Of a stretch of DNA of 64,000 bases, positions 6,788-53,007 are shown in pieces. Within the stretch, counting starts at the first letter, position 1; each line of letters opens with the position of its first letter. The notes beneath the pieces are model-generated. The model was not told the DNA's origin. It saw only the letters and a program-made list of their open reading frames with translations, and ran no database searches. Origin of the DNA: Ptychodera flava. Taxonomy: Eukaryota; Hemichordata; Enteropneusta; Ptychoderidae. The position numbers and the translations under genes are program-made. The stretch covers positions 31,799,841-31,863,840 of the forward strand of contig NC_091940.1 in the NCBI RefSeq assembly GCF_041260155.1, given 5' to 3'.

Positions 6788-7205
6788 TTAAGGATGTACA
6801 AGCAATAAAATTGATAGTATTGTCATTTCCCTAAATTGTCGATTTTTAGATTCTTCACTGTATATCGAAACGTGAAATAAAATATGGGGGTCACTGCGCT
6901 CATTTGTGAGATACAAGACCATGCATTTTAACATTTAAATTTCATTTCCGAGAAAAAACTTGCAAAGTCAGCATTTTTTCCCCAATGTCTTTCTATGGGT
7001 GAAATCTTCCAATGCCATTTATCTCCACATTATATTCAAGCATGGTGACCATTCAATATCATTTTATCACTATTATTTGTTTCTTTTGACTTAGCAATGT
7101 GCAAATTTTCATGAAAATGGCAATAGGGACTGTTTTTCCAGCAATTCTCAATGTAAACCTATGGGAAAGGATAATTCCACCCGTATAATGCATGTACATC
7201 CTTAA
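6788..7205 (+). mobile_element. 418-bp TTAA element, copy A
   Basis: It starts TTAAGGATGTAC and ends GTACATCCTTAA, giving perfect 12-bp terminal inverted repeats that include the TTAA. Its interior matches the inverted copy B at 25801-26218, including the blocks GGTCACTGCGCT/GGTCACCGCGCT, CAGCATTTTTTC and TTTTCATGAAAAT. Both copies are exactly 418 bp from TTAA to TTAA. No coding capacity is visible. Confidence 0.75.
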
Positions 7206-10925: not shown

Positions 10926-11483
10926 AGGGTAAAACTGGTCACTATACATCAGAAAGTTGTACAGTTCCCTAACTTTATATCACATACTTACCTCAATCTG
11001 TCACTTAGAGAAAGTGATAAAATCACACCGAATGGTGAGGGAGGATTCAGAGACTTTGATTCACAATCCTGTAAAGGGATATTTGGAGAATCGTGTATCG
11101 CTATACAATTGAGAAATGATGCAATATGCAAGGCTGAAAAACACGGCATAGACGACTGTCACATACATTCAAAAAGTTGTTGCAGTATGGTCCAAAATTT
11201 CTCGAACAGATGCGAGGTTTGCAGAACACTGTACAACTGTCTGAAGTCAGCACGGTATAGGAGACGTATCAACTGCGAGACAGATGCATCTGACCAACCA
11301 ACAACATCCAGTGTCCGGTGGACATACATGACCAGAGAACAGTTGATGCAGGCATTGAAGGAGAAAAACCAGCTGATAGAAAATGAAAGAAGACAGACCA
11401 AATATTACGCATTGTGTGTTGACAGGATGAAAGAAAATATAAAAATCCAGAAGCTTAGATACAATGGAAACCCTAACGAATAA
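10926..11483 (+). pseudogene. Transposon-type protein fragment with Cys-rich motif and coiled coil
   Basis: A frame open from just after a TAG at 10923-10925 to the TAA at 11481-11483 gives 185 residues with no convincing ATG at its head. It contains HSKSCCSMVQ, then a CEVCRTL motif, a basic YRRR stretch, RWTYMTREQL, and a charged, probably helical tail rich in K, E, Q and R. As I recall the family, the layout Cys-X2-Cys, then R and L, then a YLT/YMT motif, then a coiled coil recurs in transposon proteins of cnidarians and invertebrate deuterostomes, often beside THAP-like DDE transposases. No DDE domain is visible nearby. It ends 330 bp before the left end of the large inverted element, though no link is proven. 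It could instead be an internal exon. Confidence 0.4.
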
Positions 11484-11925
11484 GGTTACCCTGCATTAAA
11501 AACAGTACTAAGCTACAATACCAAAGGGAAAATGACACATCGACACTGTACACAGCAGTCAGCACAATGCCATGGCATGAGACTGTTCATCACCCAACAA
11601 ATCGAAGTTGAAAAATGCGATAAAAAATGACTGAAAAAACCTCAAAAACCTAATCCACCGACAAGAAACTTGATAAATAACAATGGTACAATATCTAATA
11701 GACTAACAATAAATCTACTTAGCTGTATATTCCGAGTACCTGACGAAAACGGTAGACGATCCGACACCCCTGTGCTGCATGCTGCCATGCCATCGCGCCA
11801 CCGTGCCACACACGAGGAATGGAAGTGTACAAAAAAAGTACAAAAAGCACGATTAGAAGCAGCAAAGTGTGCGCATGCGTGCATCCTCGTACGCGGATGT
11901 CATTTCAAAGATCAAAGCAACGTGC

Positions 11926-14900
11926 TTCTTGAGATACTTGTTTTGTACCTGTAGAACCACAATCGTAGTGAAATCCACATGTGATCGTATCGTCCGTGCT
12001 CTCTGTTTCCAAATACGACTGGTGCTTCTTGCGAGACATATTTCGTATCCGTAGAAGCACACTGTAAAAAGACATGAAAATAAAGAAATTGCACCATTTT
12101 AACCACTTTACTCAAAACACCTTTTTTTGCCCATTAAATTATGACTGGTCCTTCTTGCGAGACATATTTTGTGCCTTAGAAGCACACTATTAAAAACATG
12201 AAAATATAAATAAATTGCACTTTTTTAACTAAACTTACTGATGAATTTCTTTCACAAGTTAATAAGCAATTGTGACGTATCTTCTACTTACCATCTTTAA
12301 TTTAAAAAAAAACCACACTTTTTCCTTATATCTTCGGATTTGTGCTTCTTGCAAGACATATTTTGTGTCCTTAGAAGCACACTATTAAAAACATGAAAAT
12401 ATTAAGAAATTGAACCATTTTACCATAACTTATTGATGAAATTATTTCACGTTTTATGAAGCAATTGTGACTTATCTTTTACTGACCATCTTTAATTAAA
12501 AAAAACACACTTTTTCTTTGTATCTTCCGATTTGTGCTTCTTGCGAGACATATTTTGTATCCTTAGAAGCACATTGTTAAAAAACATGAAAATATAAAGA
12601 AATTGCACCATTTTACCGTAACTTATTGATGAAATTATTTCACGTTTTATGAAGCAATTGTGACTTATCTTCTACGAAGACCACTTTCAATTGAATAAAA
12701 AAATTTTCCTTTGATATTATGGCTGGTGCTTCTTGCGAGACATGTTTTGTGTCCTCAGAAGCACACTATTAAAAACATGAAAATATAAAGAATTTGCGCC
12801 ATTTTTACCGTGACTTATTGATGAAATTATTTCATGTTTTATGAAGCAATTGTGACTTATCTTCCAAAGAACAATTTTAATGATTCAAATAAAAAAAACC
12901 ACACTTTCCTATTGAATTATGACTTGTGCTTCTTGCGAGACATATTTTGTATCCTTAGAAGCACATTGTTAAAAAACATGAAAATATAAAGATTTTGCAC
13001 CGTTTTAACGTAACCCATTGATTAAATTCTTTCACAGTTTATTAAGCAATTGTGACTTACCTTCTACCGACCACTTTCAATTGAAAAAAAAACTTTTTCC
13101 TTTGATATTGTAACTGGTGCTTCTTGCGAGACATATTTTGTGTCCTTAGAAGCACGCTATTAAAAACATGAAAATATAAATAAATTACACCATTTTAACT
13201 TAACTTACTGATGAATTTCTTTCATATTTTATTAAGCGATTGTGACTTATCTTCTACTGACCATCTTTAATTTTAAAAAAAAACTTTTTCCTTTTATATT
13301 CCAATTTGTGCTTCTTCCAAAAACATATTTTGTGTCCTTAGAAGCACACTATTAAAAACATTAAAATATGAAAATATAAATAAATTACACCATTTTAACT
13401 TAACTTACTGATGAATTTCTTTCATATTTTATTAAGCGATTGTGAATTATCTTCTACTGACCATCTTTAATTTTAAAAAAAAAAACCTTTTTCCCTTTTA
13501 TATTCCAATTTGTGCTTCTTCCCAAAAACATATTGTGTGTCCTTAGAAGCACACTATTAAAAACATAACAATATTAAGAAATTGAACCATTTTACCATAA
13601 CTTAGTGAAGAAATTATTTCATGTTTTATTAAGCGATTGTGACTTATCTTCTACCGACCACTTTCAATTGAAAAAAAAACTTTTCCTTTGATATTACGAC
13701 TGGTGCTTTTTGCGAGACATATTTTGTATCCTTAGAAGCACACTATGAAAAACATGAAAATATAAATAAATTACACCATTTTAACTTAACTTACTGATGA
13801 ATTTCTTTCATATTTTATTAAGCGATTGTGACTTTAACTTATACTGACCATCTTTTATTTAAAAAAAAACACTTTTTCCTTTTATCTTCCAATTTGTGCT
13901 TCTTGCAAAACATACTTTGTGTCCTTAGAAGCACACTATTAAAAACATGATAATATTAAGAAATTGCACCATTTTACCATAACTTATTGATGCAATTATT
14001 TCATGTTCTATGAAGCAATTGTGACTTATCTTCTACCGACCACTTTCAATTGAAAAAAAAAACTTTTTCCTTTGATATTATGACTGGTGCTTCTTGCCAG
14101 ACATATTTTGTATCCTTAGAAGCACATTGTTAAAAAACATGAAAAAATAGAGAAATTGCATCATTTGACCGTAACTTATTGATGAAATTATTTCATGTTT
14201 TATGAAGTAATTGTGACTTATCTTCCACAGACCAATTTTAATAATTAAATAAAAAACCACACTTTCCTATTGAATTATGACTGGTGCTTCTTGCAAGACA
14301 TATTTTGTGTCCTTAGAAGCACACTGTTAAAAACAGGAAAATATAAAGACATTACACCATTCTACCATAACTTAGTGATGAAATTATTTCACGTTATATG
14401 AAGCAATTTGACTTATCTTCTACACACCGATTTTAATCATTCAAAAAACAAAACAAAACCCACTTTGTCCTATTGAATTATGACTGATGCTTCTTGCAAG
14501 ACATATTTTGTGTCCTTAGAAGCACACCATTAAAAACAGGAAAATCTAAAGAAATTACTCCATTTTAACTTACCTTACTGATGAATATCTTTCATATTTT
14601 ATCAAAAAATGTGTCTTATCTTTTACACACCAATTTTAATTCAAAAAAAAAACATTTTTTCCTCTTATCTTCCGATTTGTGCTTCTTGCAAGACATATTT
14701 TGTGTCCTTAGAAGCACACTATTAAAAACATGAAAATACAAAGAAATTACACCATTCTACCATAACTTAGTGATGCAATTATTTCACGTTATATGAAGCA
14801 ATTGTGACTTATCTTCTACCGACCACTTTCAATTGAAAAAAAAAAACTTTTTCCTTTGATATTATGACTGGTGCTTCTTGCCAGACATATTTTGTATCCT

Positions 14901-16760
14901 TAGAAGCACATTGTTAAAAAACATGAAAAAATAGAGAAATTGCATCATTTGACCGTAACTTATTGATGAAATTATTTCATGTTTTATGAAGCAATTGTGA
15001 CTTATCTTCCACAGACCAATTTTAATAATTAAATAAAAAACCACACTTTCCTATTGAACTATGACTGATGCTTCTTGCAAAACATATTTTGTGTCCTTAG
15101 AAGCACACTGTTAAAACAGGAAAATATAAAGACATTACACCATTCTACCATAACTTAGTGATGAAATTATTTCACGTTATTTGAAGCAATGTGACTTATC
15201 TTCTACACACCGATTTTAATCATTCAAAAAACAAAACAAAACCCACTTTGTCCTATTGAATTATGACTGATGCTTCTTGCAAGACATATTTTGTGTCCTT
15301 AGAAGCACACCATTAAAAACAGGAAAATCTAAAGAAATTACTCCATTTTAACTTACCTTACTGATGAATATCTTTCATATTTTATCAAAAAATGTGTCTT
15401 ATCTTTTACACACCAATTTTAATTCAAAAAAAAACATTTTTTCCTCTTATCTTCCGATTTGTGCTTCTTGCAAGACATATTTTGTGTCCTTAGAAGCACA
15501 CTATTAAAAACATGATAATATTAAGAAATTGAACCATTTTACCATAACTTATTGATGCAATTATTTCATGTTTTATGAAGCAATTATGACTTATCTTCTA
15601 CCGACCACTTTCAATTGAAAAAAAAAACTTTTTCCTTTGATATTATGACTGGTGCTTCTTGCGAGACATATTTTATGTCCTTAGAAGCACACTATGAAAA
15701 ACATGAAAATATAAAGAAATTACACCATTTCAACGTAACTTACTGATGAATTTCTTTCATGTTTTATGAAGCAATTGTGATTTATCTTCTATAGACCAAT
15801 TTTACTAATTAAAAAGAAACACTTTTTCCTGTTGAATTATGACTGGTGCTTCTTGCGAGACATATTTTGTGTCCTCAGAAGCACACTATAAGAAGACATG
15901 AAAATAAAGAAAATTCATTATTGTAACGTAAGTTATCGACGAAATTCTTCCATGGGTTATGAAGCAATTAATATTGTGACCAATCTTCTACAGACCATTT
16001 AAAAAACCTTCTTGTTATATTAAGACTGGTGCTTCTTGCGAGACATTTATTTTGTGTCCTTAGAAGCACATTATTAAAAAACATGAAAATATAAAGAAAT
16101 TGAACCATTTTACCATAACTTGTCGATGGAATTATTCACGTTCTATAAAGCAATTGTGATTTATCTTCCACAGACCAATTTTAATAATTCAAAAAAAAAA
16201 CCACACTTTCCTATTGAATTATGACTTGTGCTTCTTACGAGACATATTTTGTATCCTTAGAAGCACATTGTTAAAAAACATGATAATATAAAGAACTTGC
16301 ACCATTTTAACGTGACTCATTGATTAAATTCTTTCACAGTTTATTAAGCAATTGTGACTTATCTTCTACCGACCACTTTTAATTGAAAAAAACTTTTTCC
16401 TTTTATATTCTGACTGGTGCTTCTTGCGAGACATATTTTGTGTCCTTAGAAGCACATTTTGTTAAAAGACGTGAAAATCAAGAAATTGCACCATTTTAAC
16501 GTAACCCAATAATGACATTCTTTCATATTTAACTAAGCGATTGTGACTTATGTTGTTCAGACCGATTTAATTCGGTAAAAACACTTCTCCGTTTATATTC
16601 TGACTTGTGATTCCTGCGAGACATATTATATATCCTGAAAAGCACACTGTTAAAAGACATGAAAATATAGAAGTTGCACCATTTTAAGGTAGCTCTTTGA
16701 TGAAATCCTTCCACAGCATCGTGATTTATCTTCAACAGACCTCCTTTTATTCACAAAATC
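11926..16760 (+). repeat. Left arm: about 26 dyad-centred satellite monomers
   Basis: Monomers repeat every 190-200 bp. Each carries a 39-bp core with arms GTGCTTCT and AGAAGCAC around a 23-base centre that usually reads TGCGAGACATATTTTGTGT then CCTT. Cores start at about 11928, 12022, 12149, 12343, 12534 and so on to 16607. Linkers share ATGAAAATATAAAGAAATT, the word TTGATGAAATTATTTCA, and GTGACTTATCTTCTAC, followed by an A-run. The outermost core near 11928 and the innermost near 16607 are the most diverged. Confidence 0.9.
14040..15620 (+). repeat. Higher-order repeat: two near-identical blocks of about 784 bp
   Basis: Within the left arm, four consecutive monomers (about 14040-14823) are repeated almost unchanged at about 14824-15607. 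Diagnostic variants recur at the same offset, including TTGCCAGACAT, the ACCATTAAAAACAGG linker and the ACAAAACAAAACCCAC tract. Neighbouring monomers differ far more from each other than these blocks do, so the duplication is recent. Confidence 0.8.
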
Positions 16761-17084
16761 CCTCTTCTTATTATAATTCCGTGTGTCTGAGGACCAATCT
16801 TCGGTTTAAAAATTAACCTTCATGTGTATCAAATAACAACCATTGTTTGATGTTGAAACATAGAAATATTCTGCTGGTTATCATCGCCTCTTTAAACACA
16901 TCTTGAAGATTTTTAAGCGCTAATTTCGAGGTTTATGACAGGTAAGTATATAGGGAACAAAAGACAATCCATCTGTTAATATATTCATAAACTTTTGACT
17001 TAATTACAAAAATCTGATAGTATAAAAACGTGGCAATTAGTAAACATTGAATGTATATTCTCTCTTGTTTTTGCTTTTCTGGTC

Positions 17085-17490
17085 ATGACAAGTATTTCAG
17101 TCATTTCTTGGAATGTGAATGGATGTCACGCTCTTTATAACGGTACAACTTTCTGTCTTCACAGAAGTGTAACCATTGCGCTGACTTTAATTTTCTACAA
17201 CAAACCCATTCTACAATGGCAAATAAGGCACATTGGAAAGTTGTTTGACGTGCGCCTATTTACTTCTCTTATGGAACAAGCAATTTTGCTGGTGTTGCGG
17301 TGCTGTTTCCGCGAAACAAAAATGTTGATGTTGTTTCTGTCAAAAGTATCCTACAAGGTCGTTTACTGCATTTGCATGTTAAAATGGATGATATTTCCTA
17401 TCATTTGCTCAATGTTTTTGCTCCTATCAATGGAGATGGTCGTTGCATTTTCATTCAAAGGCTTCGTACAGATTCATGAAATATGACTAA
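17085..17490 (+). pseudogene. 5' fragment of an APE-type LINE (endonuclease), frameshifted
   Basis: The frame at 17085 begins MTSISVISWNVNG, the typical start of the apurinic-endonuclease domain in L1/Tx1-like LINE ORF2. The signal then moves between frames. One frame gives FLQQTHSTM, which corresponds to the usual LQETH catalytic motif with Glu replaced by Gln. Another gives SNFAGVAVLFP, LLHLHVKM and YHLLNVFAPINGDGR, matching the later endonuclease motifs. The frameshifts and lost Glu mark it as dead. Its 3' part is probably the fragment at 21060-21530, same strand. The reverse-transcriptase core is missing, and the 3.6 kb between is taken up by other repeats. Confidence 0.7.
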
Positions 17491-17576
17491 AACCTACCTA
17501 CACCCCAAAGTTTAACATCGCAAATTACAGTGGATCGTAAATTCTACCAATTAATTGCTAGACATAATAAGAAATG

Positions 17577-18155
17577 CAATGCTTTGTATGAAATCTGTTT
17601 TATTTGCTACAGAAACATACCAGAAATATAAAATTGACTTTTAATAGAAAAAATATTTGGATTGTATAGCTGTAATAGCCATATTTTGAAGAGTAACGCA
17701 TTATCACAGTACTGCAGACTGGCACCTTTTTTCAAATTGTTAAATTATTCTTGTGAGTCATCTACTGAGCTTAACCTGGCTTGTTTAGTATTAGAAAGGC
17801 AATTTATTAGTCTTCAAAATGGCGTATTGTAATGTTCAATATTGTCTATCTTTGTTTCTGAAATAAGACAAACATTTACCCGATACCCTAAAGTTTGTAT
17901 CGGAAATTACTGTTACAGCTAATCTCAAATTTTACCAAAGTTTTACCTAGATATATTACAAAGACAATACTTTGTATGAAATCTGCTTTATTTGCTGCAG
18001 GGAAATGTCATAAATATATCAAGACTTTTAATAGCAAAAAAAAATGCCATACTTTTGCTACACATGATAAAAAAGGCAACGTTTATATAAAATCTGATTT
18101 GTTTGTTTGTTTCAAAAGTATGTCACAAATATGAAATAAACTTTTAATGGGAAGA
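17577..18155 (+). repeat. Diverged direct repeats around TTTGTATGAAATCTG
   Basis: A 70-90 bp unit occurs near 17577-17650, 17970-18040 and, more diverged, 18085-18155. Shared parts are CTTTGTATGAAATCTG, TTTATTTGCT(A/G)CAG and ACTTTTAATAG. The third copy runs into the palindrome at 18123-18317. Confidence 0.55.
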
Positions 18156-18317
18156 TAATATGATTTAGTAGCCATTTGGATCATTTTGGTGGGGCACCCA
18201 GATATGGCACATGTATTTCAGCAAATTTGCCATGATACGCGGGTACCCTTCCAAATATGATCCAAATGGCTACTAAATCATATCATATTCCTGTTAAAAC
18301 TTATTTCATATTTGTGA
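18123..18317. repeat. 195-bp near-perfect palindrome
   Basis: The left arm starts TCACAAATATGAAATAA and includes a perfect 25-bp stretch (ATGATTTAGTAGCC through TTTGGATCAT). The reverse complement of the right arm repeats both in order. The inner region, with TATGGCA and TGCCATGA, extends the pairing nearly to the centre. As single strands it would form one long hairpin. Confidence 0.8.
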
Positions 18318-18320
18318 AAT

Positions 18321-18433
18321 AATCGTAATCATACCAATCCATAATCCGATAACACTAGGTCAGAATTCGTATGTACGTAATACAACAGTTGTAAACATAG
18401 ACACAAAACAGCACAGAACAGAATAACCAGTAT
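18321..18433. repeat. Dispersed repeat, copy 1
   Basis: About 110 bp containing AATCATACC, ATCCGATAA, ACTAGGTCA and AACATAGAC recurs in the same orientation at about 19760-19875. On the - strand it directly follows the stop codon of the exon-like ORF at 18434-18691, so it may be that ORF's 3' flank. Confidence 0.65.
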
Positions 18434-18691
18434 TCAAACAAAGTCAAATTCATGAAAGAAAGATAATGGACCTCTGGCCAAAAGACTAAGAAGTGCTGTC
18501 AGACGTTTCGAAAATACTAAGCGCATTCTACCCCACATGTGGTACCCGCCATATATCAATCGCCAAGTTAAGCTTATTGGTAACGAAGGCCCAATGTCAT
18601 TGATGCTATCAGTGATCATTTGTCGAAGAGAGATATAATTGTATTTGTCTACCAGCTTGCGATACCTTCCAAAAAAGCGTTTGACATAATT
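18434..18691 (-). CDS. Exon-like ORF inside the fold-back element, unknown product
   Basis: On the - strand a strong acceptor (CTGTTTTTGTTCCAG) ends at 18692. An 85-codon phase-0 frame then runs to TGA at 18434. The product starts NYVKRFFGRYRKLVDKY and ends LSFFHEFDFV. It is rich in basic and aromatic residues, has no low complexity, and looks like a genuine protein C terminus. I do not recognise it. Upstream exons would lie at higher coordinates, where only repeats are seen, so this is probably a captured gene fragment or the last exon of a decayed transposon protein. A chance open frame cannot be ruled out. Confidence 0.35.
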   Translation of the reverse strand, partial: NYVKRFFGRYRKLVDKYNYISLRQMITDSINDIGPSLPISLTWRLIYGGYHMWGRMRLVFSKRLTALLSLLARGPLSFFHEFDFV

Positions 18692-18836
18692 CTGGAACAA
18701 AAACAGATTTCATATGAGCATAGCCTTCAGTATAAAAAGTTAAAGCATTGTAAAAAATGGTAGAGTTTGAGATTCGCTATTGCCTCCCTATATTTTTTTC
18801 TGTTAAAATTATTTCTTATTCGGGAGATCCCAAGAT

Positions 18837-20930
18837 TTGTTACAACCGATAACATAGTAACTAACCGATAACGTAGTAATTTTTTCTAACCGATAACGTA
18901 GTAATTTTTCCTAACCGACAATGTATCAACAAATTTACCGATAACGTATCAAATCAACTGAGAATATATTGGATGAAGTGATTCCTGGGAATAGATTCAT
19001 AGGGATAGATCTATCCTCGATCGAACGATCAATCCATTGATCAATCGATTGATTGACCGATTGATCTATCGATGAACTGATCTATCAATCGAGCAATATT
19101 TCTATCGATTGAATGAATTGATCGATTACTCGACTAATAGAACGATTGATAAATCTATATATGTATATATATGATATTATATATATATTTCGATGGATAG
19201 ATAGATCGGTCGTTGCTTAGATAAATAGAGAGATAGTGTATCAAATCAACCCTTAATGTAGCCAAGTGAATAATAACGTATCAAATCAATCGATGATGTA
19301 TATATTGAATCAACCAATTATATATTGAATCAACCAATAGCCTAGCCAAGTCAAGTAAACATTCCAATCAACTGATAATGCATCAAGCCAACAAATAAAT
19401 TATTAATCGACCGATAAAGTATTAATAAATGGAAACCAACTGAATATAAATTAGTGGTGTATCTTTGTTTTTTTTTTCAAAATCAATCAGTTACACCTTC
19501 AAAGTTACATATACTTGAAGTATACTCTTTTCGTGATATTACTCAGACATCACGAATCGAATTCCATCAATTTGGGTAATGCGAACTAATTATTAGTATT
19601 CCTGCAGAATGAATTAAAGATACAACACACATGATGTGAGTGTCTTTATCGACACACTTTCTAAGTTGGGAGGACTTCGAAAAAAAGTCTTCAATATGAC
19701 CGATTATAAAATTTCGTTACTTACAACGTCAGTATATCAAAATGACGATAAGCCTTTACAAAATAATTGCAATCATACCCATCCGTAATCCGATAAGACT
19801 AGGTCAAAATTCGTAATACACTAGTTATAAAACATAGACTCTTGACAGAACAGAACAGAGAGTAAAGTACCCGTACACACTCATGTAACTCTCATTCTAG
19901 GGCTGAATTACAGGTAAAATCTAGACTCATTGCTCAATTGAATTCCTTATAATCAAAATTAACTCCTGTATAAGCAAGCCAACAGATTTTGCAGACAACA
20001 TATTGCTTTTTTCTTTCCTTTTTACCCTTTCTGTCGTTATTCACGTAAATAACTGACGCTAACATTCCATTCAGAACTGTACATATATTTCACTGTTATA
20101 TTAAGCTGGCAAAATTGTGCGTTGCTGCACTAAAAGTCAAACCACAGAACTGTTGCTATACAAAAATACTAAAACAACACTACTGTGCATTAATCTCTGC
20201 GTGCATTCCTATGTCGTTTTCATGTTTTTTGCGCATTCTTGTTGGTTAAAGAGTAAAAAAATGAGGAGAAATTTAAAAAACCGCGTCACCGCATCATTTT
20301 TGCAATATGTCTAGTATGGGAACAAACTTAAATTTGTAACAATTTAGGCTAAACGGAAAAAATAAATTGAAGAAAAGAAAATTGGGTACGAGACAATGTG
20401 ATTACAAATCGATCTATAGATATATCTATCCATCTATCTAATGACGAATTTATCGATCGATAAATCGATCTTTCAATTAATTGATCTATTTTTCTATCGA
20501 ATTGATAGATCCTTCGTTCTATCGATCGATCTGCCCATCAATTTATCTACCGATCGATTGATCGATCGACCGACCATCTATCAAACATCAATATATAGAT
20601 CGATCGATCTATCGATTGAGTGATCGATTTATCTAGCGATACATTGATCGACCTATCTATCTATCTATTCATCTATCTATCTATCTATCTAATATCTATC
20701 CATCTATAAATCGATCGATCTATCGCTCCCCATGAATCACTGAATTAGATATTATCAGTTAATTGATACAGTATTGGTTGACTTTTCTACGTTATCAGTT
20801 GATTCAATCCGTTATTGGTTTATTGATACGTTATCGGTAAATTTGTTGATACGTTATCGGTTAGGAAAAATTACTACGTTATCGGGTTTGATACGTTATT
20901 GGTTAGTAACAAAGTTATCGGTTGTAACAA
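18837..20930. mobile_element. Nested fold-back element with CCGATAACGTA subrepeats (2,094 bp)
   Basis: Terminal inverted repeats begin TTGTTACAACCGATAAC at both ends, and 27 of the first 30 bases match. Each arm continues with several subrepeats of the type ACCGATAACGTA plus GTAATTTTTCC or TCAAATCAAC, in mirrored order. Inside these lies a second layer of ATCGAT/GATCTATC repeats (about 19010-19230 and 20400-20730). The centre (about 19450-20400) is non-coding. No target duplication is visible: the flanks are CCCAAGAT and GGCTTCTG. It lies inside the larger 13-kb element. Confidence 0.65.
19760..19875. repeat. Dispersed repeat, copy 2
   Basis: This is the second copy of the roughly 110-bp repeat at 18321-18433. 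It lies within the nested fold-back element. The exon-like sequence that follows copy 1 is not repeated here. Confidence 0.6.
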
Positions 20931-21059
20931 GGCTTCTGAAAAATACAGGTTTGTTATCCGGGGAGTGCATGTAGCCCCTCTAGCCCACGGCACATAAACG
21001 TATACTTTCAACTAATGCTGATGATATAAATACTCTTGTTACTCGTAAAACTGAATTTA

Positions 21060-21530
21060 GGGTTAAAATATTGGTTTTCTGTTTACAAGCATGCCATCAA
21101 AAATTATCTATCGTAAGTCTCTCGGGTCTTTTGGTTGGCCCTTGGCGTGGGCGTACTGATCACCTGCTTGAATTTTTTTGGAATAGTATTGGTCTCACGG
21201 TCCTTGGTACTTATTTGGGTAACAGTAGTGAGTATTAAAAAAACTGGATTGACTGTGTTAATAATGGTGGGATAGATATGCTCCAGCTATGCCATTCCAA
21301 GGCCGCGTCATGTAATAATCCCCTTGCTGTAACAAAACTCTTCCATCTTTTGATTTGCCTCTGTTCTCCTGCTTTTATCATCGATGAAATTCAACATATT
21401 TTTCTTGATTTCCTCTTGCAAGGAAAACTTTGGTTACCGAATCAATCAGTTTTTGCTCCATTGAAGTTAGGAGGGCAAAACCTTATCGATATCTTTTAAC
21501 GTTTGAAAGCTTTTAGGTGAAAATATCTTC
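21060..21530 (+). pseudogene. 3' fragment of an L1/Tx1-like LINE ORF2
   Basis: Broken frames give VLGTYLGNS, a motif that follows the reverse-transcriptase domain. The frame at 21278-21499 then reads through LFHLLICLCSPAFIIDEI and FLDFLLQGK to FAPLKLGGQNLIDIF. The pattern of F, W or L, a basic residue, then LGGQNLIDI is the conserved region after the thumb in L1-like ORF2 proteins. It probably belongs with the endonuclease fragment at 17085. The gene is dead: it has frameshifts and lacks the polymerase core. Confidence 0.6.
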
Positions 21531-21689
21531 AAAAAAATCTGTATTTAGGTCTGGATAATCCTTCATTTTTGTTCTCTGTTACACCTCTCAACTTTTTATA
21601 GTCAGTTTTCAGTATGTTTCTGGATGTCTACCTAGATTTTATCTTTAGCTTTTGAATATTATATGGTCTGGCTTACTAAACCACGAAAG

Positions 21690-24660
<2,971 letters not shown>

Positions 24661-24776
24661 TCATCTTTGAAATGACATCTGCGTACGAGGATGCCCTTAC
24701 ACGCATGCGCACACTTATGCTTTCCCCCTGCTTCTAATCGTGCTTTTCGTACTGTTTTTGTAACCCTCCATTCCTG

Positions 24777-25101
24777 CACACACTGATGACGACGCCGTTC
24801 TTCAAGGCAAATTTGATGACGTTTTGCGGTTAATTTTGCGACAGTCCCATTTACCGTAAAACGAAGTTTGGTAACGCACGTACCGAGAAAAAGTGACACA
24901 CATTATTTCACCATTCTCTCGAATTTACGCCTAACTATTGAAAAATAAACAGCTGCATGTTAGTTTTGTTTGTGTTCTAAAACGTAAACTGTGATTGGTG
25001 TGGCGTATTTCGAGGTCTATATAGGCTATATGGGAGAAGGCTGAATATGTGTTTCATACCCTGGTATATCTAAAACCTTCTCACTCGCTTCCGTGAGACA
25101 A
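24777..25101. promoter_or_regulatory. Right flank of the large element with a TATA-like motif
   Basis: DNA beyond the right end holds no supported gene. TCTATATAGGC near 25016-25026 resembles a core promoter and lies just before a locally CpG-rich stretch, but no transcript can be deduced. Confidence 0.25.
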
Positions 25102-25800: not shown

Positions 25801-26218
25801 TTAAGGAACACAATTGTACGAGCGGTACGCGCGCGTGGAATTTGTCACTTCCCATAGGATTACATTGAAATTTGCTGGAAAAGCAATTTCTACTAATGTC
25901 ATTTTCATGAAAATATGCACAAAGCTCAGTCTAGAGAAATAAATAATACTGATCAAATAAAATTATATGGTCACCGCGCTAAATTTTGAGATAAACATCA
26001 TTGAATTATTTCGTCCATAGAAAATGCATTGGTGAAAAAATGCTGACTCAGCATTTTTTCTCACAAATGGCAAAATTCATGGTCATTTATCTCAAAAACG
26101 AGCGCGGTGACCCCTATATTTTATCACACATTTTGATAATACTTACAAAGGAGAATCCAAAAAATTGACAATTTAGAGAATGACATTACTTTTAATTTTA
26201 CCGATCGTACATCCTTAA
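25801..26218 (-). mobile_element. 418-bp TTAA element, copy B
   Basis: This is an inverted copy of the element at 6788-7205, with the same length. Its right end GTACATCCTTAA is intact, while the left end TTAAGGAACACAATTGTACG has an 8-bp insertion-like change. It is non-coding. Confidence 0.75.
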
Positions 26219-39505: not shown

Positions 39506-40138
39506 GGGGTCCAGACACTTCGCACCAAAACCAGTTCGCCCCACACAACTTCGCCCCCAAAACCATTTCGCACCAAACCACCTCGTCCCAAGTACTACCT
39601 CGTCCAAAGCCACTTCGCTCCAAGTACCACCTCGTACTAAAACCACTTTGCCCAAAGTATTATACCATCAACTCGTCCTAAAACAACGATGCCACGATTT
39701 ATCATAACGTTGATGTTACATGCAACTTATTTTGGCTACCACGGAAACATTTATTGATGCATGAAACCATAAACAGTAGACTAAGAAAAGAAAAAACACC
39801 AAACTACTCAATGCTACAACTCGGGTGCCGTGCGCGGAATCGCACGATGTCATTTTCTCGAAATGTGTACAATTTCAAGATTTCACTGTGTCCTGGGATG
39901 ATAGAAAGGTGATGGAAACTTCGATAGCAGTTGTTGGTTATTTTCAGCTTTACCGGGTGGCGATAAGTTTAGGGCAAAGTGGCATCGTTTGGGGGCGAAA
40001 TGGTTTGGGGCGACGTGACTTTTGGGGCGAAGTGGTTTTGGTACGAGGTTATTTTGGTGCGAAGTGGTTTTGGTGCGAAATGGTATGGGACGAGATGGTA
40101 TGGTGCGAAGTGGTTTTGGTGCGAAGTGTCTGGGAATC
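39506..40138. mobile_element. Small fold-back element with minisatellite arms and 8-bp target duplication (633 bp)
   Basis: GTCAAGTA flanks both sides (39498-39505 and 40139-40146). Just inside, CCAGACACTTCGCACC and seven further bases are identical in inverted orientation. Each arm, about 150-170 bp, is a mirrored string of 15-20 bp units of the type CCACTTCGCACCAAAA with variants (CCCC, CGTCCC). The middle is non-coding. An 8-bp duplication is characteristic of hAT-type transposases, so mobilisation by one is likely. It lies about 310 bp downstream of exon 1 in the zinc-finger gene's intron. Confidence 0.85.
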
Positions 40139-42545: not shown

Positions 42546-42716
42546 AGTATATTAAAATTCTGGCATGGAACGTCAAAAACGGGTTTTTGCTCAAGCTGAG
42601 AGCTCGCTCGTATACCAGCCATGGTGTATCGCCAATATACCACGGTTCCTTTTGCATCTTGACCAATCAGATCCCTGCATTTGCGCAATCAATATACTGG
42701 TATGATATAATAATTA

Positions 42717-43325
42717 TTAAAGGGGAAGTTCACCAAGGATGATTTTTACATATGTGCTAGCTTTGTGGTCACTTACCCCGGAAAGCTATTTTCGCCATTT
42801 ATAACTTGCACGATTTTTACAAAACCGATAGAAATAGTACAGGAAGTTGCTCATGTAATTTGAATCATGGGAAAAAAGCGCCAAACTTGGAGCTTGCATC
42901 ATGTGATATGGAAGGCACCATTTTCCCATGGGTATGGCATTGTCCACTCACCCATGCTTAAACCAGGCTGTGCGTATTTACATAACTTTTGTTTATACTG
43001 AGTATCCTTGCATAAACGGTGAATCACTTATAATAAACTGTCCACTGTCAGATTTTGTGTTGCTGTTTACTACTGTGTTACTGTGAGTGGACAATGTGGG
43101 GGCCATACCCATCCGAAGATGGTCCCTTCCATATCACATGATGCAAGCTCCAAGCTTGGGGCTTTTTTCCCATGATTCAAATTACATGGGCAACTTCCTG
43201 TACTATTTTTATCATTTTCGTAGAAAATCGGGCGAGTTATAAATGGTGAAAATAGCTTTTCTGGGGTAAATGACCACAGAGCTACCACATATGTAAAAAT
43301 CATCCTTGGTGAACTTCCCCTTTAA
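42717..43325. mobile_element. TTAA-ended element with about 240-bp inverted repeats (609 bp)
   Basis: Both ends begin TTAAAGGGGAAGTTCACC, and the first 40 bases are identical in inverted orientation. Similarity continues for about 240 bp with scattered mismatches, leaving a central loop of about 120 bp. It is non-coding; a - strand frame at 43070-43303 is only the arm read through. The TTAA ends suggest piggyBac-type mobilisation. Confidence 0.8.
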
Positions 43326-43554
43326 TTAAAACATCAAGATCTTAATTATGGGTCGTTTTTCATACAAACTGGACACACACACAATGTTGGCGGCAAATGC
43401 ACAAAGTTGAAGAAGCCAATTACCATTTACGAGGATATCGGATGTTTCCTGAGTTAGGACGTAACATATGTTCGAATGATATTAAAACAATGAAAAGAGT
43501 TCACACTTATTGAAGGGAACATGAAAATTTCACGTGAGGGGTTTATAAGAAAAT

Positions 43555-44800
43555 AATTTCTTACTACACCCATTTAAACAGTCCAGTCTATGTATGCTTT
43601 CTAGACGCCACCAAAGCTTTTGATCGCGTCAACCACTGGTCCTTGTTTAAAAAACTTATAGACAGAAATGTGCCCTGGTATGTAATTCGAATAATAATGT
43701 TTTGGTATCGAACACAGTCTTTTTGTGTAAGATGGGGAAAATCCTTTTCCTCACTTTTTACTGTGAAAAATGGTGTCCGTCAAGGCAGTATTTTATCTCC
43801 ATATTTATTTAATATTTATATGGATGATTTGAGTCTTCGTTTGAAAACTTTAAAAAAAGGTTGTAACATCGGCGGTCTTATTGTTAATCATCTCATGTAT
43901 GCAGATGACATTGCTTTAATGTGCCCATCAGTCGGTGGGTTGCGTAATTTAGTGTAACTCTGTGAAACATACGGCATCGAACATGATATTGTTTTTCACC
44001 CAAAAAATCAGAATGCATGTATTTCATTCCATGTAAATTTGGTCTTGGTACAGATAAGGTCCTACCAATTTATTTAGGGGTAAGATATTAAATGTTGCAT
44101 CCCAACACAAATATCTAGGTTATGTGTTCTCTGAAAAATTGACAGACGACGCTGATATTACGAGACAAGTGCGTAAATTCTATGGCCAGGCAAATTCACT
44201 GATTCGCAATTTTGCACATTGTAATAATCAGGTGAAGGTTTCGTTGTTTCGCTCGTATTGCACTAATATGTATTGTTCTCAGTTATGGTGGCAATATAGT
44301 GTAAAGAATATGCACAATATAAGAGTGGCTTTTAACAATGCCTTTCGTATTCTCCTGAGTCTACCACGGGATTACAGTGCTAGAGGAATGCTTGTATCAA
44401 ACACTGTTCCATCTTTCGACTCTCTCAGACGGAACCTATTGTATAAATTCTCCGTAAGACTGCATAATAGTAACAATAGCATCTTGAGGAAAATAGTGAG
44501 CTCCGACGTATTTGTATTCTCAAAGTTTCATGAGTCTTACAGAAAGACAATGTATCTTTTACACCGGTAGTTGTATGTAGCTGGTCTTTTTAACACAGAA
44601 GCTTTAACTCTGATTGCGCTTTGTACCTTTTACTTCCCTGTTTTTTTAACCTCCTTTTTCCTTCTTTTTGTAGTTCCAATGGTCTGGGGGGTTTTTTTCT
44701 GTTAGATAGGTGTCTACGTGATTTTTTTTAGTGTTATATGGGATGTAGTTTACAAATCCTGATTTAAATAAATAAATAAAAAATAAATAAATAAATTGTC
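43555..44800 (+). pseudogene. 5'-truncated LINE with reverse-transcriptase domain
   Basis: The frame from about 43555 contains YVCFLDATKAFDRVNHW, GVRQGSILSPYLFNIYMDDL and HLMYADDIALM, so the YADD catalytic motif is intact. After a stop and frameshift near 43957-44124, the region following the polymerase continues with FYGQANSLIRNF, SLFRSYCTNMYC and FRILLSLPR, up to TAG near 44570. The motif order matches L2/CR1-type (Jockey group) LINEs. The 3' end is marked by an AAATA-rich tail at 44764-44795, normal for such elements. The endonuclease is missing, so this is a dead 5'-truncated insertion, unrelated to the L1-like pieces at 17085 and 21060. Confidence 0.85.
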
Positions 44801-51052: not shown

Positions 51053-51417
51053 ACAGTCTCTCTTGTGGACATTGCCGGACGATATTGCGCAAAATACAAA
51101 GACGCAATCGGAGTAATCTGTCTTTGTTAGTGTAAAAAGCGGTCGCAGATCGATACACATCATTTTACATGTTGTGACAACTTGTGTTAGACAATCACCC
51201 CGCGTCATCGTTTTCGCTCTGGAAACTGTCCTGTGATTTTACTTTCGGTTTCACTCGAAGAACTTTCCCCTTTGGTGTTGTACACTTGAAGCTTGTCGGT
51301 AAAGTTGTGCCGTTTGTTAATGGTGAAGTCTCCGTGAAGGTTGAAAATTGAACGATCTGATTTGTGCTCTTTGTTTGGATTTTATTACGAGTTGCTCTTT
51401 GTACCGGGATCCACACG
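51053..51417 (+). other. 5' UTR exon of the SLC10-like gene
   Basis: A textbook acceptor (long T-rich tract, then CTGTATTTCAG) ends at 51052. The following sequence leads to the ATG at 51418 and holds an in-frame GTG-initiated extension of 18 codons that I reject as a start. I infer a non-coding first exon further upstream, possibly in the CpG-richer area near 50100-50420. Confidence 0.5.
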
Positions 51418-53007
51418 ATGGTTGCCTACGAGGGAATTCGATTTATCTCCGCGTTGTTGCTATCATCGTCGATGGTGTCGCTTACCGCGTCACAACAGTA
51501 TGACTTGATTGGAAATACGACGGTCTCAGCCCTGACCACCCAACCCAAGCTGATGAGGTCACTGAGTCCGCTGCCGCCCCTTACATTGGTGGCGGGTGAT
51601 ACTACCGTAGTCAAGTTCAACTACTCGGGAATTTTGGAGGAGGGTTTGGTCTTGGAAGTGATGATCAGAGACCCTCTCGTCATCGGGTTTCTCGGTTCGA
51701 ACTATTCAAAAATGGAATTCCCACTGGAGCAATATATCTTCGATTCAATAGAGGTTGACCTGGAAGCCCATGCAATCGGTATCACCGCGATCGAAACTAA
51801 AATCATTTTCACGGGCGCGAGCACCAGACTGGGCATGGAAGTCGCCGTACCTCTTGAACCGTACGCCGTCAAGGTGCTACGACCGTACATGGAGCTGAGC
51901 AAGGCCTACAATTACGTCCTGCTTCCGCTCATCGTCTGCAACAACATCGCACTCGGTTCCGCAGCCGACGTGAAAGTGATGTGGTCGAAGATCAAAAATC
52001 CCTTACACATGACCGTGGGAGCGTTCTGTCAGTTCGTCTTGATGCCACTGATGACATTCGGCTTGGCTTTCCTGTTCCAGCTGGATCCCTACACCGCCAT
52101 TGGCCTGCTTACGGTTGGCTGTGTACCTGGTGACCGACTGAGCACAATTTTGACGTCTTTGATCGGTGCCGACCTGGAGCTCAGCATCACAATGACCATC
52201 ATCTTCGCGGTCATTGCACTGGGGATGACGCCACTCAACATGTTCATCTATTCCCGTCCCTTCGTCAACAGATCCAATTTGCCCATACACGTCGTTATCC
52301 CCTTCTTTGAAATGTTTTTGCAGATTTTAGCCCTCGTCGTTCCCATCTCTGTCGGTTTGCTGATCAGTTGGAAGGTGGAGTGCCTTAAGAAGGCTTTGAA
52401 GAAGATCTTGAAGCTACTGTCACTCACTTGTTTGATCGCTACGCTCATACTGAACATGCTCACTAACAAATACGTGTTTTCCGCGCCACCTAATTTGATT
52501 CTTTGCGCGTTTCTGGTGCCTTTTCTAGGGTTCAACTTGGCCTACTTGATTGCTAGGATCGTACGCGTTAGTTACATCCCTGGTAAGACCATCGGCGTCG
52601 AAACTGGAATCCAGAACAACATCTTGGCAACGGCCATCCTGCGACATTCGTACCCCCAGCCAGAAGCCGATCTTCTGTCGCGGGTTTCAATACTTGCCAT
52701 CGTGGCCTCGATAGTCGACGGGCTTGTGTGGGTCATCGTGCACAACATTCGGAGTTGCATAAATAACCAACTGAAGAAGCGGAGGGCGAAGAAGAAGCAA
52801 CGCGGAGACGCCGACGACGATGCAGACCCTAAAACGGCGCCGATGGCGCCCGGCGAGGACACCGACTCCGACGAAGACTTTTACACAGTTAGCGATATAG
52901 AAGAGGACGCCGCGAACTACAATGCGCATGCGACGAAGAAACCGGACCAATGGTATAAGAAAGACAAGGAACAAGAAGTCACAGATATGAGAGAGTCAAA
53001 TGTTTAA
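51418..53007 (+). CDS. SLC10-family (sodium/bile acid cotransporter-like) membrane protein
   Basis: An intronless coding region of 529 residues. I start at the ATG at 51418 because an N-terminal signal sequence follows at once (FISALLLSSSMVSLTA, residues 9-24). Residues 25-160 form a long ectodomain with three N-glycosylation sites (Asn33, 68, 95). Eight to ten membrane segments follow between about 164 and 445. The SLC10 signature GIQN is present as ETGIQN at 395-400. The other conserved loop reads GCVPGDR (234-240), where most transporters have CCPGG, so the second Gly is Asp and sodium binding may be altered. The long ectodomain resembles SLC10A3/A5-type members rather than NTCP or ASBT. 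The tail (450-529) is basic, then acidic, and lies in the cytosol by prediction. The substrate is unknown. Confidence 0.9.
   Translation: MVAYEGIRFISALLLSSSMVSLTASQQYDLIGNTTVSALTTQPKLMRSLSPLPPLTLVAGDTTVVKFNYSGILEEGLVLEVMIRDPLVIGFLGSNYSKMEFPLEQYIFDSIEVDLEAHAIGITAIETKIIFTGASTRLGMEVAVPLEPYAVKVLRPYMELSKAYNYVLLPLIVCNNIALGSAADVKVMWSKIKNPLHMTVGAFCQFVLMPLMTFGLAFLFQLDPYTAIGLLTVGCVPGDRLSTILTSLIGADLELSITMTIIFAVIALGMTPLNMFIYSRPFVNRSNLPIHVVIPFFEMFLQILALVVPISVGLLISWKVECLKKALKKILKLLSLTCLIATLILNMLTNKYVFSAPPNLILCAFLVPFLGFNLAYLIARIVRVSYIPGKTIGVETGIQNNILATAILRHSYPQPEADLLSRVSILAIVASIVDGLVWVIVHNIRSCINNQLKKRRAKKKQRGDADDDADPKTAPMAPGEDTDSDEDFYTVSDIEEDAANYNAHATKKPDQWYKKDKEQEVTDMRESNV

Follow-up and report, generated by a model that had tools for sequence, protein, structure and literature searches.

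A probable non-autonomous foldback-type transposon with inverted arms of tandem repeats that share a 39-bp dyad

Results

The 64-kb window (the whole stretch of DNA analysed here) contains, between positions 11814 and 24776, an element of 12,963 bp that we interpret as one non-autonomous foldback-type DNA transposon, with a 7-bp duplication made on insertion and a 39-bp dyad as its putative transposase binding site. We give this reading a probability of roughly 0.7. An earlier note on this DNA had proposed a foldback-type transposon, and that interpretation is supported by a 7-bp repeat at the edges, by inverted termini of 147 and 157 bp, and by opposed arrays that share the dyad of the termini. 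The element is a real example of a known design and is not categorically new; new here are two repeat classes that clearly match only in the dyad and, as the data suggest, an exchange of sequence between the arms after insertion. The element may belong to a dispersed family, but no second copy, empty site or transposase was seen, which counts against the preferred reading. A search for relatives in viral contigs, an unlikely place, gave 0 matches with four DNA patterns, and a peptide query returned 14 stretches there, none of which was confirmed.

Borders and termini

Alignment of the two ends and the 7-mers abutting them showed that the edges previously claimed, 11814 and 24776, are exact. 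The left copy of the putative target-site duplication, CACACAC, lies at 11807-11813 and matches the right copy at 24777-24783 exactly, with zero offset from either terminal edge; the earlier note had mentioned these copies only as a possibility. Allowing the edges to move by 2 bases, a flanking match of at least 7 was obtained by chance for 46 of 20,000 random position pairs. A putative target-site duplication, of the kind that belongs to the foldback-type class, is present at both edges (CACACAC). The 7-mer is low-complexity (CA)n, which counts against the foldback-transposon reading. An inverted pair at 6788-7183 and 25832-26218 (∼400 bp, 75%) brackets the element at unequal distances, and these are perhaps two copies of another dispersed repeat.

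Both terminal inverted repeats were delimited by self-BLAST and global alignment. The left one (11814-11960, + strand) begins with GAGGAATGG and consists of 108 bp of end sequence followed by the first dyad, and the right one (24620-24776, - strand) begins with CAGGAATGG on that strand. In a global alignment of 11814-11960 with 24776-24620 in inverted orientation, 130 of the 142 ungapped columns matched and 12 did not, with a few indels besides, an identity of 91.5% (a difference of 8.5% plus indels). Self-BLAST reported the inverted pair 11815-11964 and 24775-24616 at 81% over 165 gapped columns (E 1e-38). The expected inverted match of more than 100 bp between the outer ends was thus borne out, and long terminal inverted repeats typical of the foldback-type class are present, the 147- and 157-bp termini being continued by inverted arrays of one repeat family. 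The dyad lies inside both termini, at 11922-11960 (bases 109-147 from the left end) and at 24658-24620. The tip of the left terminus also carries an inverted dyad-like motif, with p 0.002, the lowest value attainable with 500 shuffles, for all three dyads compared; the corresponding comparisons for the right tip were weaker (p 0.05, 0.07 and 0.59), and six comparisons of both tips with the dyads in the other orientation gave no signal (p 0.15-0.72).

An open frame crosses the left terminus and most of the right terminus, and the left frame was used for a homologue search. We rejected a protein-coding terminus, as the relevant part of this frame (residues 60-107 of 11631-11951) shared three words with no candidate. 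An ORF of 185 aa with a CxxC motif is located at 10926-11483, 330 bp outside the left end. It was considered as a piece of a transposase and rejected, having no Pfam hit and two NCBIfam hits far under their cut-offs (E 0.029 and 0.19); no homologue at E 0.001 was found among 23 candidates.

Repeat arrays of the arms

We defined the arms as 11814-16741 (4928 bp) and 21699-24776 (3078 bp), which agrees with the earlier estimate of about 8 kb in total (8.0 kb). The dyad pattern, GTGCTTCTTG ... GAAGCAC (39 bp, up to 3 mismatches), was scanned over the 64 kb and gave 35 matches, every one within the element, and none in 100 shuffles. The left arm holds 21 of these, on the + strand at 11922-16455, and the right arm 14, on the - strand at 21798-24658, as anticipated if both ends pass into oppositely oriented arrays of one dyad-centred monomer. 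The inverted repeats are internally made of tandem subrepeats, another property of the foldback-type class.

Units were cut with hand-placed borders, 26 on the left and 17 on the right. The left array (11922-16741, + strand) has 26 dyad units, nearly all of class A (∼194 bp), and local alignment to the A unit runs on to ∼16881, beyond the border of the arm. By sequence comparison with the left arm, the inner part of the right arm (21699-22330, - strand) is a class A block of ∼3 units; the outer part (22331-24658, - strand) is an irregular class B array with a median spacing of 175 bp, interrupted by an (AT)n run at 23192-23335. In three right units (R08, R09 and R11) the dyad is damaged; in one of these the 144-bp (AT)n run splits it. 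Inspection by eye places this run, a perfect (AT)72, inside the dyad of one B unit.

Class A spacing ranges from 184 to 204 bp (mean 193.9, 22 intervals) and class B spacing in the outer right arm from 101 to 235 bp (median 175, 13 intervals). The monomer spacing had been described as nucleosome-like, which, judged from these distances, seems a fair description of A but a loose one of B. The arms are unequal in size and class, the left being almost all A and the right having B outside and ∼3 A units inside, and this inequality counts against our preferred reading. The difference in repeat class, together with the fact that tandem repeat is most of the arm sequence, would suit a plain satellite array that a chromosomal rearrangement had disrupted and in part turned round, with no transposon involved. 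Against this, the two outer ends are closed by one end sequence of 108-118 bp, inverted at one end relative to the other and with a direct 7-mer outside it. Inversion alone is not expected to produce such an arrangement, and we regard the rearrangement as very unlikely.

Conservation of the dyad

Mean pairwise diversity was calculated for 25 class A units (L02-L24, R14 and R15; L00, L01, L25 and R16 were dropped) and for 10 class B units (R00, R08, R09 and R11 were dropped, and R13, which contains an A/B junction, was kept). In class A it was 0.060 in the 39 dyad columns versus 0.206 elsewhere, in class B 0.159 versus 0.370, and in the six fuller class B units 0.185 versus 0.329. When all circular windows were ranked in these three sets (192, 178 and 175 windows), the dyad came second from the bottom each time, with its neighbour one base away as the single lower value. 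The dyad is the least variable part of both repeat classes. Of its 39 columns, 16 were invariant across the 29 dyads aligned (all of the 35 but six A dyads).

Within the dyad, the A and B consensus sequences aligned with a score of 23, the largest score of 500 shuffles being 12, while outside it they had no match (p 0.35). In profile searches between the spacers, no A to B match was better than E 0.95, with R13 left out, and the best B to A match had E 0.14. A clear match between classes A and B is confined to the 39-bp dyad, which the termini also carry. When single B units were compared with A outside the dyad, R03 (p 0.003) and R00 (p 0.007) differed from the other four (p 0.06-0.98), and these two of the six units compared hint at a remote kinship of the classes there.

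The presence of the dyad within both termini (11922-11960 and 24658-24620) bears on the origin of the arrays. MITEs and Helitrons have been described as capturing tandem repeats (PMC12628747), and the transposon could likewise have captured a pre-existing host satellite, in which case the dyad array did not grow from the terminus. Yet the dyad is part of both termini, and the B units of the right arm are by eye closer to the terminal dyad than the A units are; growth from the terminus is therefore the simpler account, and we consider capture improbable.

Low dyad diversity could also stem from conversion hot spots or from a host protein. The dyad might be kept as a hot spot of breakage or hairpin formation, or because a host DNA-binding protein involved in nucleosome positioning or heterochromatin marking recognises it, and not for a transposase. 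In single-strand DNA folding, four of the five dyads tested did better than their shuffles (z -3.6 to -5.7), and the regular A spacing of 184-204 bp would agree with such a role. The left terminal dyad, however, folds no better than shuffles (z 0.16), B spacing is irregular, and the presence of the motif in the termini points to transposition, and we thus rate this alternative as unlikely but worth keeping in mind. A structured RNA or ribozyme in the monomer was rejected, no Rfam match reaching its gathering score in the 64 kb; the 15 matches up to E 5 within 11700-24900 (best E 0.43) were each far under theirs. The sequence CTGATGA in some A units presumably only recalls hammerheads. No tRNA genes were found.

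Exchange between the arms

The left arm contains a 783-bp higher-order repeat of four units (14031-15513, + strand), in which only 6 of 700 columns show a substitution between 14031-14730 and 14814-15513 (99%); this is a four-unit duplication. The inner right block, over 350 columns inwards from 22329, has 98% identity with the left arm at two places, starting at 14381 and at 15164. This inter-arm tract has 7 substitutions in 350 columns, followed by 32 in ∼270, and with the 350-column cut, chosen after the profile was seen, it differs from the termini (12/142; Fisher p 0.0016) and from the columns that follow (p 5e-7). Because the tract (98%) is more alike than the termini (91.5%), and assuming that the termini were identical at insertion, we suggest that the arms exchanged sequence after insertion. 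The high identity of the right-arm tract and that of the left-arm duplication end at nearly one unit position (∼14730, 15513 and 21985), and a single event may have made both.

Long, near-identical array tracts such as these are hard to assemble, and only one sequence was available, so the inverted arms and the 99% four-unit duplication might be thought to be products of misjoined reads or haplotypes. Unit make-up is very different in the two arms, however, and the two termini show an 8.5% difference plus indels, a pattern not expected if one set of reads had been duplicated in inverted orientation; we give an assembly artefact hardly any credence.

Interior of the element and remainder of the window

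The 5-kb interior (16742-21698) has a longest stop-free frame of 160 aa, and no transposase was found in it. Pfam searches with five ORFs of the interior, and with two segments translated through stop codons, gave no domain, in particular no THAP domain and no transposase; the one match, to Mo25, was at chance level and under the cut-off (E 0.26). A THAP transposase need not be present in a non-autonomous copy. Two segments, ∼17091-17479 and ∼21117-21550, resemble what we take to be scraps of an L1/Tx1-type retrotransposon; since Pfam returned nothing for them and PDB one chance hit (E 1.1), the resemblance is a tentative one. A second inverted-repeat element is nested at 18837-20930, with inverted repeats at 18837-18982 and 20930-20794 (∼140 bp, 81%) and 25-bp subrepeats (CTAACCGATAACGTAGTAATTTTTC) at 18861-18925 in the left one. 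We saw no duplication flanking it by eye. There are thus two foldback-looking structures, one within the other.

Elsewhere in the window, two short minisatellites with 15-17-bp units (39511-39653 and 39993-40133) stand in opposite orientation and are 78% alike. An inverted pair at 42716-42951 and 43083-43326 (244 columns, 89%) lies just before a reverse-transcriptase ORF at 43538-43954 (Pfam RVT_1, E 1.6e-19). An ORF at 51361-53004 encodes an SLC10-type transporter (Pfam SBF, E 8.7e-26); its relative from Saccoglossus kowalevskii, 53% identical, was the only one besides itself at E 1e-20 among the 7,997 best-word candidates scored. From this one clue, the host is probably a hemichordate, of a species other than this acorn worm.

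Discussion

If the foldback-type reading is correct, a transposase supplied in trans would bind the dyad, perhaps in dimeric form. Selection would favour arms that carry many sites, and sites would multiply by unequal exchange. The two arms would convert each other, also after insertion, and later insertions would fill the interior. By analogy with Galileo, the occurrence of the dyad at the terminus and throughout the arrays is in keeping with a transposase site.

A more speculative view, which we think doubtful at best, is that the arms show a satellite forming around a transposase site, with selection keeping only the 39-bp dyad and an approximately nucleosome-length spacing. Spacers would then be replaceable, giving two classes with unrelated spacers. 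If this were true, arrays freed from the element would be satellites with a built-in protein box, and through them a transposase-derived protein could acquire a role in marking chromatin, for which CENP-B on alpha satellite offers an analogy.

The purpose of long repetitive foldback arms has been called uncertain (PMC3688188), and among the papers examined the idea that the repeats act as extra transposase sites was tested, for foldback-like elements, only in Galileo. Here, from the sequence alone, constraint on the repeat seems strongest at one 39-bp site, which two diverged classes and the termini have in common, and the dyad offers a defined target for a binding test. The analysis also suggests that the arms go on exchanging sequence after insertion.

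Comparison with known foldback systems

Long inverted repeats made of tandem subrepeats are known from FB of Drosophila and from TU of sea urchin, the host of TU belonging to the sister phylum of the hemichordates. Their subrepeats are short, ∼10-31 bp in FB and 15 bp in TU, versus 175-194 bp here. The hAT superfamily makes an 8-bp duplication, and the one found here is of 7 bp; the right end presumably does no more than recall hAT ends. Galileo families have a ∼40-bp terminal sequence in common.

Sea-urchin foldbacks are cited in the Tetris paper (PMC4079207), which was the only item on them found in the open-access literature. No hemichordate foldback was met in the titles and abstract openings examined, which as open-access material without supplements is weak evidence of absence, and five words from the dyad and termini occurred in no open-access paper. 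Two chromosome-level hemichordate genomes were described in 2024 (PMC11175523).

The earlier note had named FB and Galileo as the nearest design. A foldback type with subrepeat arms does fit, but the closest published design we found is Tetris of Drosophila virilis (PMC4079207). As described there, Tetris has a flanking domain followed by ∼220-bp AT-rich tandem repeats in both inverted arms, a 37-bp stretch, ∼80% alike, common to flanking domain and repeat, a variable middle without apparent coding capacity, and target-site duplications of 8-10 bp; its authors note that the repeats also form kb-size satellite-like arrays and place it in the Mutator superfamily (PMC4079207). Compared by description, our element likewise has a flanking domain, then repeat arms, a middle with no apparent coding capacity and a putative target-site duplication, and its 39-bp dyad parallels the shared 37-bp stretch. 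The two differ in duplication length (7 bp here, not the 8-10 bp that Tetris shows as a putative Mutator member), in arm length (4.9 and 3.1 kb here versus up to 1,735 bp), and in that ours has two repeat classes clearly matching only in the dyad and a probable hemichordate host. If the host call is right, a Tetris-like plan is extended to a deuterostome.

Galileo, of the P superfamily, has a 7-bp duplication (PMC3573991), as found here. Galileo group F has long inverted repeats with ∼210-bp tandem units, and its two arms change size independently (PMC3688188, PMC3573991). In Galileo-G, THAP-domain sites are reported near the terminus and in two repeats. Of four repeats just the first two have the site, and transposition was not observed in vivo (PMC3688188). 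Both of these last points count against our preferred explanation. In the view of its authors, a large number of sites could confer specificity and compensate for length (PMC3688188). The arms described here are ∼2.5 to 4 times the 1.26 kb reported for Galileo, and no THAP transposase came up in the five ORFs and two stop-crossing segments of the interior. What our element has in common with Galileo, as described in those sources, is a 7-bp duplication, long inverted repeats of tandem units, and arms of independent size.
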